Shown here: positions 58,495 to 64,000 of the stretch, piece by piece
Numbering within the stretch: position 1 is the stretch's first letter
Layout of the letters: each line of letters starts with the position of its first letter
Source of the DNA: Humisphaera borealis
GTDB taxonomy: Bacteria; Planctomycetota; Phycisphaerae; Tepidisphaerales; Tepidisphaeraceae
DNA length: 64,000 nt
NCBI RefSeq assembly: GCF_015169395.1
Contig: NZ_CP063458.1
Coordinates: forward strand, 868,001-932,000
Direction: 5' to 3'
Program-made: the position numbers and the translations under genes
The notes under the pieces: generated by a model
Database searches by the model: none
Seen by the model: the letters and a program-made list of their open reading frames with translations, nothing else
What the model was told of the DNA's origin: nothing

Positions 58495-58533
58495 AGATGT
58501 CTGTCTGAGCGCCAGACGTTTCCAGGCGCCCCT

Positions 58534-59151
58534 CTACCGCTTGAGTCCCTCCGGCAGTTCTTTCAGGCGTTCAACTTCCAGCACCTCGGTGTAGTACCAC
58601 GCCTTCCCGCTCGATTTCTTGTAGCCGACGACCTTCGCCGGATACTTTGCACCGTCGTGTTCTTTCCAATTGCTGAAACGGTGGATGTCGGATCGCCAGT
58701 CGATCCGGGCCAGCCGGCTTTCGGCTTTGTCGAAGTACAGGTCCATCGGCGGAGTGATCGTTCCGCTGACTCGCAAGCCAAACGCCGGCTTTTCCGCTTC
58801 GACAATTTCCGGGATCGCCTCGACCTTCGACTTCGGATCGGTCAGTGCCCCCAGCGTCCAGGCCCAGACCAGGAAGATCGCCGGCTCCTTCTCGTCCATA
58901 ACGCGCTCTTTCTTCCCGAGCCACCAGTAGTTCGGCGGTTCGATGACGGAGACCCGCTCTTTTCCCTTGGCGGCCGGATCGGGGCTGACGTTCAGTCGTT
59001 CCTTGACGCGAAAGAGCTTGAGTAGTTTGTCTTCCCCGCCGGCTGCCTTGACGATCGTCGCAATACGCGCCTTGGTATCGCCGTCTGCGGCACTCAACGG
59101 CAGGGCGAACAAGACCGCGAACAGGACGATCGGAAGGTGGAACTGCTTCAT
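58534..59151 (-). CDS. Secreted protein of unknown function
   Basis: This 205-residue protein has a signal peptide (LPIVLFAVLFALPLSAAD, cleavage near 23). The mature part begins with a helix, IATIVKAAGGEDKLLKLFRV, and alternating strands follow (RVSVIEPPNYWWLGKKERV, FGLRVSGTITPPMDLYFDK, KYPAKVVGYKKSSGKAW), a layout like the LolA/outer-membrane-lipoprotein-sorting fold or DUF-type relatives. That match is weak, so I leave it unnamed. It ends 40 bases after the convergent LTA-synthase-like gene. Confidence 0.75.
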   Translation of the reverse strand: MKQFHLPIVLFAVLFALPLSAADGDTKARIATIVKAAGGEDKLLKLFRVKERLNVSPDPAAKGKERVSVIEPPNYWWLGKKERVMDEKEPAIFLVWAWTLGALTDPKSKVEAIPEIVEAEKPAFGLRVSGTITPPMDLYFDKAESRLARIDWRSDIHRFSNWKEHDGAKYPAKVVGYKKSSGKAWYYTEVLEVERLKELPEGLKR

Positions 59152-59299
59152 ATGTAGTCTCGCGGTCGGCACAATTGACATGGGCTGAATGCCGAAACAA
59201 CCCCAGGCCGGCTATCGGGCCGGACATGACGGCCTTCGGCTCTCGCACCCTTTTACCGACCGAACGGCCATGCGTGGTGATCGCCCACAGACACAAGGT

Positions 59300-59328
59300 T
59301 TGTCCCGGCGTTCCCGGTTCGCTATGAT
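59300..59328 (+). promoter_or_regulatory. Possible sigma-70 promoter of the NifU-like gene
   Basis: TTGTCC (59300-59305) and TATGAT (59323-59328) are separated by 17 bases, ending 45 bases ahead of ATG 59373. The -10 box differs from TATAAT at one position. Confidence 0.45.
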
Positions 59329-59372
59329 TGGTGCGTAGGAGATCGTCCCAGCCCGACGCCACGGACACCCGA

Positions 59373-59633
59373 ATGACCCCAGTAACCGCCGACGCCACCA
59401 ATACCCCCCTCCGCGACAAAGTGCTGGCGGTGATCAATCTGATCCGCCCGGCCGTTCAGGCCGACGGAGGCGACATCGAACTGGTCGACATCCAGCCCGA
59501 TGGGCAGGTTTCGATCCGTTTCCACGGTGCCTGTATCGGCTGCCCGAGCAGCCACATGACGCTTCAGCACGGCATCGAACGCAGCTTGCGAGAGAAGGTC
59601 CCCGAAGTGACGAAAGTCGTGCCTGTGGTGTGA
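59373..59633 (+). CDS. NifU C-terminal domain (NfuA/Nfu-type) iron-sulfur protein
   Basis: This 86-residue protein is a single Nfu domain: DKVLAVINLIRPAVQADGGD, VDIQPDGQVSIRFHGAC, then CIGCPSSHMTL with the CxxC that carries a 4Fe-4S cluster between two subunits, and GIERSLREKVPEV. It acts as a cytoplasmic carrier in iron-sulfur cluster delivery. Length fits stand-alone Nfu proteins. ATG 59373 is preferred over a TTG at 59328, since the first 15 residues would overlap the -10 box. Confidence 0.92.
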   Translation: MTPVTADATNTPLRDKVLAVINLIRPAVQADGGDIELVDIQPDGQVSIRFHGACIGCPSSHMTLQHGIERSLREKVPEVTKVVPVV

Positions 59634-59780
59634 CAGGGCTTCGGGACACATTTCGCCTGAGGGTCGCTGATCGACCTTGGACCCCCGCTTAAGAGCCCAC
59701 CAGCAAATCCGTGCCTTTAAGAGTACGCCCAGAACGCGGCGTACCTTTTCGCTCCACCTTTTGAATCCTGAATGACCGCC

Positions 59781-60950
59781 CTATGCCGTCTTGGCGACGC
59801 GCCGCCGCGGACCGCGGGGGACACGCTTGCGGCCGAATGCATCGGTCTCGGTCATCACCTTGCTGGCGCGGGTGTCGTCAAGGACCACCGATGCCGCCAA
59901 TGCCCCTGACGCGGCCGAGCTGTTGATCGGGGACGTCGACACCCTCAGTGCGTGTTCGAGGCGTTTCCTGGCGTAGGCGACGTATTCCGCGCTCTGATCG
60001 ATGCCGACGTACTGGCGGTTGTTCAGTGCGGCGCTGACGACCGTTGTTCCCGAGCCGTTGAACGGGTCGAGTACCACATCGCCGGGGTTGGAACTGGCTT
60101 TGATGATGCGGTCGAGGACCGCGATCGGCATCTGGCAGCCGTGCCAGCCTTCGCGTTCCTTGAACGTGCCGCAGATTCGGCTGACGTTCCACGTATCACT
60201 CACCGGGTCAAAGAAATCGACCGGAAGAAACGCATCGGCCGGCAGGTCTTTCTGCTGCTCCACGTACTGCGAATAGCCTGATTCATAGAACGACGTCTCC
60301 TGCGGGCGCAGGAACCAAGTGTCGTCGGGCAACTTTCCTTTGGCGTTGGCGCGGGAATCGCCGTAGGTCGTCTGGCGGGCCGAGGCGACGCGGATGGCGT
60401 CGGCATTGAACGTGAGGTTGGTCATCCCCGATTCGGGTTTCTGCTTCGTGAAGTAGAGGATGTGCGTGTGGCTCTTGGCGAACATCTTCTTGGTCTGTTG
60501 CCCGAAGGTGTAGTGCCAGATGATCCAGTTCCGCATGTGGAACCCGATCTTCCGCCGGGCTACGACGGCCAGATCGGCGGCAAACTCGTCGCCAATTGCC
60601 AGGTAGAAACTGCCGGTCGGCTTCAGTGCCCGGTGCACGGCCGACATCCAGCGTTCCGACCAATCAACGTACTCGTCGACATCTTTGCGGTCGTCGTAGT
60701 TGTGGTAGAGGTAGCCGATGTTGAACGGCGGGTCGGCGAAGACCAGATCAACCCAGCCTTCAGGCCCGTCATTGAGCACTTTTATCGAGTCGCCGCGGAT
60801 GATCTGGTTCGTTTCGGGCATTCCGGCTGGATTGTAGAGCCGTGGACCGACATGCCCAAGGGATTGTGCTTTTTTCAACAGCCGGGATTTGGGCCGGGAC
60901 CGCTTGATCGCGTCTAAACCCTTTACGAACGCTTGTTTACGCTGATTCAT
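59781..60950 (-). CDS. Orphan site-specific DNA methyltransferase (beta class, N4/N6 type)
   Basis: This 389-residue protein has motif IV FADPPFNIGYLYHNY (about 65-80) before motif I DPFNGSGTTVVSAAL (about 290-305), the order of beta-class amino-methyltransferases; DPPF and the G-x-G loop bind the target base and SAM. The N-terminus is basic (KAFVKGLDAIKRSRPKSRLLKKA), and a target-recognition region (about 130-260) lies between the motifs. The C-terminal tail is Arg-rich (RKRVPRGPRRRV). No restriction enzyme gene is adjacent, so it looks like an orphan enzyme with a regulatory or protective role. The recognition sequence is unknown. Confidence 0.88.
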   Translation of the reverse strand: MNQRKQAFVKGLDAIKRSRPKSRLLKKAQSLGHVGPRLYNPAGMPETNQIIRGDSIKVLNDGPEGWVDLVFADPPFNIGYLYHNYDDRKDVDEYVDWSERWMSAVHRALKPTGSFYLAIGDEFAADLAVVARRKIGFHMRNWIIWHYTFGQQTKKMFAKSHTHILYFTKQKPESGMTNLTFNADAIRVASARQTTYGDSRANAKGKLPDDTWFLRPQETSFYESGYSQYVEQQKDLPADAFLPVDFFDPVSDTWNVSRICGTFKEREGWHGCQMPIAVLDRIIKASSNPGDVVLDPFNGSGTTVVSAALNNRQYVGIDQSAEYVAYARKRLEHALRVSTSPINSSAASGALAASVVLDDTRASKVMTETDAFGRKRVPRGPRRRVAKTA

Positions 60951-61056
60951 CCGACTCCCACTCCGTGGCTGGCCTTTGAACCAAGTTTCAGACCGTTGCG
61001 CGGTCCATGGGTTTCGAGGCGCTTCGCCCTATAATCGACCCCGGTCGGCACTAAGC

Positions 61057-62730
61057 ATGAATCCCGAATTCCCCAAACTTCCGCCGGCGGAGCCGTCGCT
61101 TCAGCCAGGCGATGGCGCGGCGTCCTCCGGGGCGGATTCATGGGCAGACGGTTCAGGCCGGTTGCCTGCCGGACCGATCTTACGCCTGCTCGACGCCAAC
61201 GCGAACCGCGCCCGCGAAGCATTGCGAGTTCTGGAGGACTACGCCCGCTTTATCCTCGATTCCGAGAGTCTGAGCGGTCGGCTGAAACACGTCCGCCACG
61301 GCTTGGCCGAAGCAGTGGGGCCGATCCTGCCCGAGGCGATCCTTCACCGCGATACGCCCGGCGATGTCGGGACGACGAACAAAACAGCCGCGGAGCTGAC
61401 AAGGTCCAGCATCGAGGACGTCGTCGTTGCCGCCGGCAAACGGCTGGGCGAGGCGCTCCGTGCGATCGAGGAATACCTTAAAACGCTCGACCCGTCGGCG
61501 GCGCAGAAGGTCGAGACCTTGCGATACGCCTCGTACGACCTGGAACAACGCATCGCCCGGACCCTCCGCCCGCCGGCCTGCGATTTTGGCTCCATCGAGC
61601 TCTACGTACTGGTCACCGAGTCGGTCTGCAAAGGCAACTGGCTCGACGCGGCGACCGACGCCCTGATGGGCGGCGCGGACTGCCTGCAACTGCGGGAGAA
61701 ATCGCTCGAATCCGGTGAGCTTCTGTCGCGTGCCAGGCAACTGGTCGCCCTCTGCCGGGAGTTCGGCGTCCCCTGCATCATCAACGACCGCCCTGACATC
61801 GCCGTGCTTGCTGACGCGGATGGTGTTCATGTCGGTCAGGGTGATCTGCCGGCCGTCGAGGCAAGGAAGATTGTCGGGCCCAACCGCATCGTCGGCGTCA
61901 GCACCCACAACATCGAACAGGCGCGGCAGGCGGTCCTCGACGGCGCGGACTACATCGGCGTCGGCCCGTTCTTCCGCAGTAGCACCAAGCCCAGGGACTT
62001 CATCGCCGGGCCGGAATACGCAAGGAAGGTCGCCGAAACGATTGGAATTCCCGCGGTGGCGATCGCGGGAATCACAGAGGAGAACGTCAGTGAAGTTTTG
62101 GCGACGGGGATCAGGGCCGTAGCGGTCAGCTCGGCGGTGCTGGGCGTGGATGATGTGAGAGTGGCGGCGGCAAGACTGAAAGAAAAGGTCAGGTCGGACG
62201 AGTCCGTCTCCCCGGTGGGGCAGACATTCTTGTCTGCCGATTCAAGGGCACGGGCATTCTTGCCCGGCCCGGTTCCGAGCATGTCGGCCCTTGAAAAGCG
62301 GCGTCGGCGACTCCCTCACTGGACCTTGGCAGGTTCTGCTTACTTCATCACCTTTCGCGTTGATAGCGGCGAATTGAGTGAAGCAGAGCGAACCATTGTC
62401 CTGACGCACATCCGCGAAGGCCACGAAAAGTTCTACTTCTTGATCGGGACCGTGGTGATGCCGGATCATGTGCATGCAGTGCTCGAACCTATCGGTGGCG
62501 TGACGCTGCCTCGCATCACCAAAGGCATGAAGGGCGTCTCTGCACGAAAGGTCAATTTGATACGCGGAGGCTCAGGCTCCGTATGGCAGGATGAGTCGTG
62601 GGACCGAATACTTCGAGATCAGGATGAACTGGATGAGAAGCTGAAGTACATGCTCGACAATCCCGTTCGAAAGGGACTCGCTGAAGACGGCTGGAGCTAC
62701 CCTTGGTGGCTCTTTATGGGTAAGAGATGA
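61057..62730 (+). CDS. thiE: ThiD2-ThiE thiamine biosynthesis fusion read in frame into a RAYT transposase
   Basis: One 557-residue frame has three parts. ThiD2 (about 38-165; RLLDANANRAREALRVLEDY, then RDTPGDVGT) phosphorylates hydroxymethylpyrimidine phosphate. ThiE (about 183-385; CLQLREKSLE, CIINDRPDIAV, DGVHVGQGDLP, GVGPFFRSSTKPRD, GIPAVAIAGITEENV) couples HMP-PP to the thiazole phosphate; ThiD2-ThiE fusions are known. After ThiE, about 20 residues (about 388-408) are encoded by palindromic repeats. From Met409 (62281) a RAYT enzyme runs to the end: AYFITFR, the HUH motif PDHVHAVLEP, KGMKGVSARK, WQDESWDRILRD and KLKYMLDNPVRKGLA with the candidate nucleophilic Tyr. No stop separates ThiE from RAYT. 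ATG 61057 starts the conserved part. Confidence 0.88.
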   Translation: MNPEFPKLPPAEPSLQPGDGAASSGADSWADGSGRLPAGPILRLLDANANRAREALRVLEDYARFILDSESLSGRLKHVRHGLAEAVGPILPEAILHRDTPGDVGTTNKTAAELTRSSIEDVVVAAGKRLGEALRAIEEYLKTLDPSAAQKVETLRYASYDLEQRIARTLRPPACDFGSIELYVLVTESVCKGNWLDAATDALMGGADCLQLREKSLESGELLSRARQLVALCREFGVPCIINDRPDIAVLADADGVHVGQGDLPAVEARKIVGPNRIVGVSTHNIEQARQAVLDGADYIGVGPFFRSSTKPRDFIAGPEYARKVAETIGIPAVAIAGITEENVSEVLATGIRAVAVSSAVLGVDDVRVAAARLKEKVRSDESVSPVGQTFLSADSRARAFLPGPVPSMSALEKRRRRLPHWTLAGSAYFITFRVDSGELSEAERTIVLTHIREGHEKFYFLIGTVVMPDHVHAVLEPIGGVTLPRITKGMKGVSARKVNLIRGGSGSVWQDESWDRILRDQDELDEKLKYMLDNPVRKGLAEDGWSYPWWLFMGKR

Positions 62731-62911
62731 AGTGTGTGCATGCCGGTGGGGCAGACATTCTTATCTGCCGCGGGCCCCCGACCCCGGCATTCCTGCCGGG
62801 TTGAGCGGGACCGCAGCCGGACGGCGGTGGAGCTGTTTCGCATGACCTCGACCGGGCAGGAATGCCCGGCACTCGGCCATTCGAGGCAGGCAAGAATGCC
62901 TGCCCCACCGG
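62212..62911 (+). mobile_element. REP-RAYT-REP element inserted at the 3' end of thiE
   Basis: A Y1-type RAYT frame (Met at 62281, stop 62730) is bordered by hairpins that share one design: a variable stem and a TTCT or TTCC loop. Left: GGCAGACA-TTCT-TGTCTGCC (62219-62238) and CGGGCA-TTCT-TGCCCG (62251-62266). Right: GGCAGACA-TTCT-TATCTGCC (62750-62769), CCCGGCA-TTCC-TGCCGGG (62783-62800), and in inverse CCGGGCA-GGAA-TGCCCGG (62852-62869) and GGCAGGCA-AGAA-TGCCTGCC (62885-62904). The outermost right-hand words CCGGTGGGGCAG (62743) and CTGCCCCACCGG (62900) are perfect inverses, and the left hairpin begins with the same CCGGTGGGGCAG (62212). Confidence 0.9.
62281..62730 (+). CDS. REP-associated tyrosine transposase (RAYT) portion
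   Basis: Listed separately because ATG 62281 could be its own start, giving 149 residues, the length of compact RAYTs. The HUH pair (DHVHA) and a Tyr in KLKYMLDNP on the predicted helix alpha are placed as in Y1 transposases of the IS200/TnpA-REP kind, and SGSVWQDESWDRILRDQDEL is typical of the family. The family binds and cleaves REP hairpins as single-stranded DNA. It may be expressed alone or as the ThiE fusion; no Shine-Dalgarno sequence is seen at this ATG. Confidence 0.85.
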   Translation: MSALEKRRRRLPHWTLAGSAYFITFRVDSGELSEAERTIVLTHIREGHEKFYFLIGTVVMPDHVHAVLEPIGGVTLPRITKGMKGVSARKVNLIRGGSGSVWQDESWDRILRDQDELDEKLKYMLDNPVRKGLAEDGWSYPWWLFMGKR

Positions 62912-62952
62912 AAGATCCCTGCGCGACCCGCGATGCCTCAATTCGGACACGG
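62731..62952. other. Gap between RAYT and murJ
   Basis: 222 bases almost entirely made of REP hairpins (62743-62911) followed by the murJ leader. Frames here that run antisense are repeat-derived and not supported. Confidence 0.6.
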
Positions 62953-64000
62953 ATGTCCCAACCTTCCTCATTCCTTCGCCACGCCAAAGTCGTCGGCCTC
63001 CTCACGCTCGCGAGCCGGGTTCTGGGGCTGGGACGCGAGATTGTCTCGGCCCACTTTCTCGGGACCGGCCTGATCGCTTCGGCGTTTACTGTCGCGTTCA
63101 CCATTCCGAACCTCTTCCGAAAGCTCTTCGGCGAAGGGGCGCTGTCGGCGGCGTTTATTCCGCTTTACGCCAGGGCGGTGAAGGACGATCGGACCTCCGC
63201 CGCCGATTTCGCCGCGTCGGGCATCAACCTGCTCGTCGCGATCCTCCTGGCCATCACCATTCTTGGCGAACTTCTATTGGTGGGCATTCTGGCCCTTTGG
63301 CCGGGGCTGCGGGCGGACCACCTGCTTACGCTTCGCCTGACGGCGATCATGCTGCCGTACGTTCTGCTCATCTGCGGAATGGCGTTTCTCTCCGGCATCC
63401 TCCAAGTGCACCGCCGATTCGCCGCACCTGCGGCGGCGCCGATCCTGCTCAACCTCTGCCACATCGCCGTGCTGGTGATCGGGGCAGCGACGCTCGGGCT
63501 TAGCGGTCGAACCGATGACGATCGCGCCGCCGAGCTGCAAACCTCCCTCGTCTACTGGCTGGCGTTTGCCGTGCTCGTCGCCGGCGTGTTGCAGACCGCC
63601 ATCCTGCTGCCGAGCCTGCGTGCCGTCGGCTTTCGCTTCCGCCTGGCCGTCGGCCTCTGGACGCCGATGACCCGAAACATGTTCCGGCTGACCATTCCCG
63701 TCGCGCTGGGTGCCGGCGTCGTCCAGTTGTCGGTGCTGCTCGACCGAAGTCTGTCCACGTTGCTGATGGCCGGCGTCGATGCCGCCGGCAACCAGATCAC
63801 GCACTTCTCGATCTTCGGCCAGGTATTGCGTTATCCGATGGAAGCCGGCGCACCCGCCCGGCTGGCCGTCGCGCAGTTTATGTACCTCTTTCCGCTGGGC
63901 ATCTTCGCCACAGCTCTGGCAACGGCGATCTTTCCTTCGCTCAGCAGCGATGCGCTTGAAAAAGACCAGTCGAAGTTCAAAGCATCGCTTCGGCAGGGAA
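62953..64000 (+). CDS. murJ: Lipid II flippase MurJ (partial, cut by right edge)
   Basis: The frame is open to the right edge, giving 349 residues of a protein that is usually about 500-530. It begins SSFLRHAKVVGLLTLASRVL followed by GLGREIVSAHFLGTGLIA, and IPNLFRKLFGEGALSAAFIP is the MurJ/MviN signature. About nine hydrophobic helices are visible; the fold belongs to the MOP superfamily. MurJ moves lipid II across the inner membrane for peptidoglycan synthesis, which would mean this organism makes peptidoglycan. ATG 62953 starts the conserved sequence 41 bases after the last REP. Confidence 0.93.
   Translation, partial: MSQPSSFLRHAKVVGLLTLASRVLGLGREIVSAHFLGTGLIASAFTVAFTIPNLFRKLFGEGALSAAFIPLYARAVKDDRTSAADFAASGINLLVAILLAITILGELLLVGILALWPGLRADHLLTLRLTAIMLPYVLLICGMAFLSGILQVHRRFAAPAAAPILLNLCHIAVLVIGAATLGLSGRTDDDRAAELQTSLVYWLAFAVLVAGVLQTAILLPSLRAVGFRFRLAVGLWTPMTRNMFRLTIPVALGAGVVQLSVLLDRSLSTLLMAGVDAAGNQITHFSIFGQVLRYPMEAGAPARLAVAQFMYLFPLGIFATALATAIFPSLSSDALEKDQSKFKASLRQG

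Follow-up and report, generated by a model that had tools for sequence, protein, structure and literature searches.

An in-frame RAYT domain at the C terminus of ThiD2-ThiE in Humisphaera borealis and related RAYTs inside other genes of Phycisphaerae

The fused reading frame and its REP surroundings

The window analyzed here is a stretch of 64,000 nucleotides of the Humisphaera borealis genome (contig NZ_CP063458.1, positions 868,001 to 932,000, forward strand), and positions are counted from its first letter. It holds a reading frame that encodes ThiD2, ThiE, a linker, and a RAYT in succession (Table 1). An initial annotation, made from the sequence alone, had proposed that thiE lacks a stop of its own and continues in frame into the RAYT; this was borne out, with no stop codon between the ATG at 61057 and the TGA ending at 62730, and with the same junction in three other genera. 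Use of an upstream TTG at 60976 as the start would lengthen the fused ORF to 584 aa. The ThiE part also matched the ThiE/TMP-TENI family of Pfam (E = 1.5e-59), and this gene is the sole ThiE match of the genome.

Table 1. Features of the fused ORF and the adjoining REP sequences (window positions)
Feature	Position	Strand	Remarks
Fused ORF ThiD2-ThiE-linker-RAYT	61057-62730	+	557 aa
ThiD2 domain	61183-61548	+	Pfam PF17792, E = 5e-39
ThiE (thiamine phosphate synthase) domain	61600-62178	+	TIGR00693, 184.8 bits (cut-off 145.1)
Translated linker, ThiE to RAYT core	62191-62304	+	38 aa, mostly REP DNA, predicted disordered
Upstream REP	62212-62239	+	GTGG head + GGCAGACA-TTCT-TGTCTGCC; translated VGQTFLSA
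Second linker hairpin (shorter, TTCT loop)	62247-62272	+	Single-strand folding
RAYT domain from first in-frame ATG	62281-62730	+	149 aa, NCBIfam NF047646 (REP_Tyr_transpos)
HVH metal-binding motif	62467-62475	+	Both His invariant in 25 RAYTs
Catalytic Tyr candidate (KLKYMLDNP)	62647-62649	+	Invariant in 25 RAYTs
Downstream REPIN	62743-62911		Span 163 bp, outside ORF
Direct REP of downstream REPIN	62743-62770
Inner hairpins of downstream REPIN	62780-62805 and 62843-62871
Inverted REP of downstream REPIN	62882-62911	-	Head GTGG

The RAYT was matched by NF047646 with 82 bits on its own (cut-off, 80) and 77.8 bits within the fusion, and by the Pfam Y1_Tnp family exactly at the 23-bit cut-off. An alignment of 25 RAYTs left H63, H65, Y123, and N127 invariant. 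When a profile of the four ThiE-RAYTs (see below) was compared with solved structures in the PDB, the first match was the E. coli TnpAREP (4er8; E = 2.2e-8), with HVH aligned to the HUH motif, the candidate tyrosine to Y115, and the asparagine to N119. A fold search with the whole fusion returned thiamin phosphate synthases as best folds, and the top 50, mostly ThiE-like, included no RAYT; the RAYT domain was then folded alone with AF2 (mean pLDDT, 90), and Foldseek again gave 4er8 first (E = 1.8e-8; TM = 0.68 by query length). Linker residues 383 to 421 were modeled with pLDDT below 50, and the linker is predicted to be disordered. A complete HUH/Y1 RAYT with an HVH motif and a candidate tyrosine had been proposed at the outset, with the reservation that alignment might reveal another kind of domain; the alignment to TnpAREP instead confirmed the assignment.

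The extent first given for the element, 62212 to 62911, does contain the RAYT with its REP hairpins but joins two things, as the ORF ends at 62730 and the remainder from 62743 onward is a separate REPIN. Six hairpins, two in the linker and four downstream, fold as single strands (z = -2.7 to -5.6), and their loops read TTCT/TTCC or its complement, in agreement with the initial annotation. Inverted GT(A/G)G-headed REPs bound the RAYT on both sides, one on the plus strand in the linker and one on the minus strand at the far end of the REPIN, as published for RAYT loci (PMC2817692). The REP motif occurs three times in the window (0.00 expected), and the window REP (GTGG followed by GGCAGACATTCTTGTCTGCC) has 47 copies genome-wide at up to three mismatches, compared with none for a reversed control. 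Inverted REP pairs were present in 18 of 20 stretches from the same genome, with spans of 119 to 125 or 148 to 167 bp; these pairs are REPINs, and the downstream REPIN fits one of the two size classes. One other stretch of this genome (L319; G000:C1:2940985 and 2942635) departs from the inverted REPIN pattern: its two REPs point the same way and are 1.65 kb apart.

A Y1/HUH profile, the His, Tyr, and Asn residues, a TnpAREP fold, flanking inverted REPs, and dispersed REPs and REPINs are thus all found together, and, judged from sequence and predicted fold, the C-terminal part of the fused ORF is a genuine RAYT. A stand-alone gene is usual for RAYTs but does not define the family; here, four genera have it in frame with thiE.

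The fusion in related genera

Among 26 genomes of the family, the in-frame arrangement of ThiE, REP linker, and RAYT was also found, and checked on the DNA, in G023, G004, and G022, which represent three other genera. Their linkers are 49, 60, and 33 aa long, respectively, and the linkers of fused carriers hold translated REPs (VGQTFLSA, VGQTFLSV, VGQAFLPV). The distribution is patchy: thiE was detectable in 24 family genomes and fused in 4 of them. In relatives without the RAYT, the frame stops a few to a few dozen codons past ThiE, and murJ usually comes next. A search of 397 genomes of the class with the whole fusion gave, among the roughly 150 matches listed, the fusion only in these four. 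Because the same in-frame junction recurs in three other genera, chance or a sequencing error or frameshift, which the initial annotation had named as a possible source of the fusion, is very unlikely. The joint chance that all four are in frame and open is about 2e-4 if the cases are independent.

An alternative hypothesis takes the RAYT for an ordinary gene of its own beside thiE, started from the ATG at 62281, with a linker frame that is open only incidentally in GC-rich DNA. In the window this ATG is in frame and is followed by a typical RAYT N terminus, and on shuffling, the GC-rich linkers would each be open with a probability of 0.24 to 0.61. Against this, no Shine-Dalgarno sequence is evident at the ATG, and in each of the four the RAYT is in frame with ThiE and the linker is open. 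G023 has a GTG and a TTG inside its REP, and G022 has a single start-like codon, a TTG in mid-linker. G004 has no ATG, GTG, or TTG from the end of ThiE to the RAYT core, so that fusion seems to be the only form in which its RAYT is made. In addition, most related RAYTs of the class lie inside long frames, and those sampled have host domains on both sides. We therefore regard a stand-alone gene as unlikely.

The RAYTs of the four carriers share 45 to 62% identity, and the HxH motif and tyrosine are kept in all of them. Across their codons, pN was 0.28 to 0.37 and pS 0.72 to 0.88; since synonymous sites are close to saturated, the ratio is only a qualitative sign, by which all four fused RAYTs look to be under purifying selection. 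This bears on the proposal that the element landed at the end of ThiE and erased its stop, leaving a fusion, neutral or somewhat damaged, that is bound to decay. Close relatives without the fusion, such as G002, where the frame stops soon past ThiE although it belongs to the genus of G023, would fit such an event. However, four genera carry the fusion with intact active sites and signs of purifying selection, and a recent single origin would need near-identical RAYTs, which the identities contradict for the four genera as a group. As a simple recent event, the insertion is unsupported, and we consider it extremely improbable.

The ThiE tree rejects a single clade of fused ThiEs (p-AU = 3e-6) and needs at least four changes. 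In the RAYT tree, the four fused RAYTs fall within a clade of ten (support, 99/98) whose other members are RAYTs of Ignavibacteriae, Zixibacteria, Desantisbacteria, Deltaproteobacteria, and other Planctomycetota; constraining the four to one clade is neither supported nor rejected (p-AU = 0.21). Together, these two results do not establish a single ancestral fusion. As the fused ThiEs are not one clade, gains or losses must have recurred at the thiE site, through either repeated gain or one early gain with many losses. The exact REP motif is present in 4 of 4 carriers (12 to 164 copies) versus 4 of 22 other family genomes, the remaining 18 having none (Fisher p = 0.005, not corrected for relatedness). 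One of the noncarriers with REPs is G002, which has 41 copies and no such RAYT. This is consistent with loss, and it indicates that REP copies need no such RAYT at present.

RAYTs in frame within other genes

RAYTs from other long frames were used as queries against the 397 genomes of the class (Phycisphaerae; E up to 1e-15). Of 150 RAYT matches listed, 103 had a surrounding frame of at least 400 aa, which for 75 reached at least 800 aa. The premise of the initial annotation, that RAYTs are stand-alone genes, fails for this bacterial group. Host homology was found on both sides of the RAYT in 72 of 94 nonredundant frames of at least 350 aa, a count that is not a rate because the 94 were picked for length from several searches. 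RAYT matches in frames of about 280 to 480 aa (L122 to L130) were inspected and left out of the host insertions. Hosts named by Pfam in the sample were ValS, IleS-type and LeuS proteins, a DinG-like helicase, PurH, Ham1, an ETF-domain protein, and DNA methyltransferases (type ISP restriction-modification and DUF1156 proteins). The long open frame as a mere effect of GC content is ruled out for these sampled hosts, as Pfam domains flank the RAYT on both sides.

In ValS, the RAYT occupies the same loop, between FWYLRYPL and TVATTRPET, in 15 carriers, and most have REP-like coded edges. These edges differ among loci (L118, L119, L218, L220, L224, L225, L228, L229, L231, L232, L234, L235, L236, L238, and L239). 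The RAYT-bearing valS is the only valS above the curated cut-off in all 14 carrier genomes scanned, although some are split at contig ends. Because valS is essential, single-copy, and in frame with its insert, the inserted sequence is presumably translated and tolerated.

In the DinG-like helicase, the stretch from SATL to GSPF spans about 29 to 62 residues in relatives without the element, 83 residues in G002, where it includes REP-coded peptide but no RAYT, and 267 to 287 residues in six measured RAYT carriers; a seventh, G004, runs off its contig. The DinG loops of L293 (G002) and L291 (G023) hold a REP-coded peptide (HGLETRAT and TGFQPV or similar) and no RAYT. H. borealis itself has a second in-frame RAYT, in a DinG-like helicase (L082, G000:C1:3413000-3419000) at genome positions 3416023 to 3416586 on the minus strand, edged by SDTGFQPV and HGLEARVTD.

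Two further observations concern other loci. RAYT frames L132, L134, L137, L144, L147, and L172, from Desantisbacteria, Deltaproteobacteria, Bacteroidota, and Kapaibacterium, cluster with methyltransferase or DUF1156 hosts, the hosts being assigned by sequence clustering only. At L252 (G304:C212), two separate RAYT-like pieces lie in different open frames of one 6.5-kb stretch.

The range of hosts also bears on a possible role of the fusion in thiamine metabolism, in which, for example, RAYT activity might depend on thiamine status or the RAYT might regulate thiE. In favor of such a role, the association with thiE in one family has either recurred or been kept for long. On the other side, related RAYTs ride in unrelated genes, and a search of 58500 to 64000 gave no Rfam element, TPP riboswitches included. 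A thiamine role is therefore very improbable. Of the earlier suggestion that the fusion is used, and couples RAYT level to thiE expression, the first part appears to hold, given four genera and the G004 linker with no alternative start; the coupling is unlikely, given the many unrelated host genes.

A probable frame-riding RAYT and its relation to known systems

The fusion thus presents an observed reading frame with its domains, conserved, associated with REPs, and in single copy. From these features, it is likely a frame-riding REP-RAYT unit that is translated together with the single-copy ThiD2-ThiE as its C-terminal domain, as one case of a wider habit. We propose that REP DNA supplies an open, flexible linker peptide (VGQTFLSA and onward) and that, if the fused protein is produced, the host protein includes the RAYT as a domain. 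With an intact HUH/Tyr site, the domain would most likely nick and join single-stranded REP and REPIN hairpins of the same sequence family, by analogy with REP cleavage by TnpAREP (PMC8266576). The frame of a needed gene would provide the RAYT with transcription and translation without signals of its own, and imprecise deletion should be costly, which we suggest as the selective reason. Related RAYTs, often REP-edged, likewise lie in frame, in loops or at the tails of further housekeeping proteins that occur in single copy. Thiamine is probably not the point of the fusion, and thiE would be one site among many.

More broadly, single-copy essential proteins across Phycisphaerae seem likely to house a REP-RAYT lineage as in-frame domains, as do some methyltransferase genes in other phyla; in this intein-like niche without splicing, the element would be expressed and protected by the host gene. 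RAYTs have been portrayed as single-copy genes that are inherited vertically and have no known benefit for the host (PMC8049555). A seat inside ValS, LeuS, or ThiE would be a simple way for a RAYT to persist and be expressed, and in-frame RAYTs make it testable whether such genes are kept for a function or are just not cleanly removable. They also suggest that essential proteins tolerate enzyme-sized insertions, and annotation pipelines will misname the host genes that bear them. In the open-access literature searched, intragenic REPs are reported but a RAYT in frame inside a host gene is not, and the wider habit of RAYTs within single-copy housekeeping genes such as those for tRNA synthetases is apparently undescribed.

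The closest known system is the RAYT/TnpAREP REPtron (Nunvar 2010, PMC2817692; Quentin 2018, PMC6006769; PMC8266576), which shares the HUH/Y1 domain, the catalytic tyrosine with its following asparagine, flanking inverted GT(A/G)G-headed REPs, and REPs and REPINs dispersed in the genome. Described rayt genes are separate REP-bounded ORFs, whereas the present one encodes the C-terminal domain of a metabolic enzyme, with its upstream REP inside the translated sequence. Residues are also added to proteins by intragenic REPs and the Rickettsia palindromic elements, which lie in frame in coding sequences such as those of DNA-repair proteins and tRNA synthetases (Di Nocera 2013, PMC3733652). In those cases, palindromic sequences alone (about 20 to 82 aa) are in frame; here, it is a whole transposase. 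Inteins, too, place the enzyme of a mobile element in frame within conserved single-copy genes. In contrast, no intein/Hint family was found in Pfam scans of the fusion (E of 0.01) or of 14 other RAYT-bearing frames (E of 1e-5), and there was no sign of splicing; an intein identity was therefore rejected and protein splicing is not expected.
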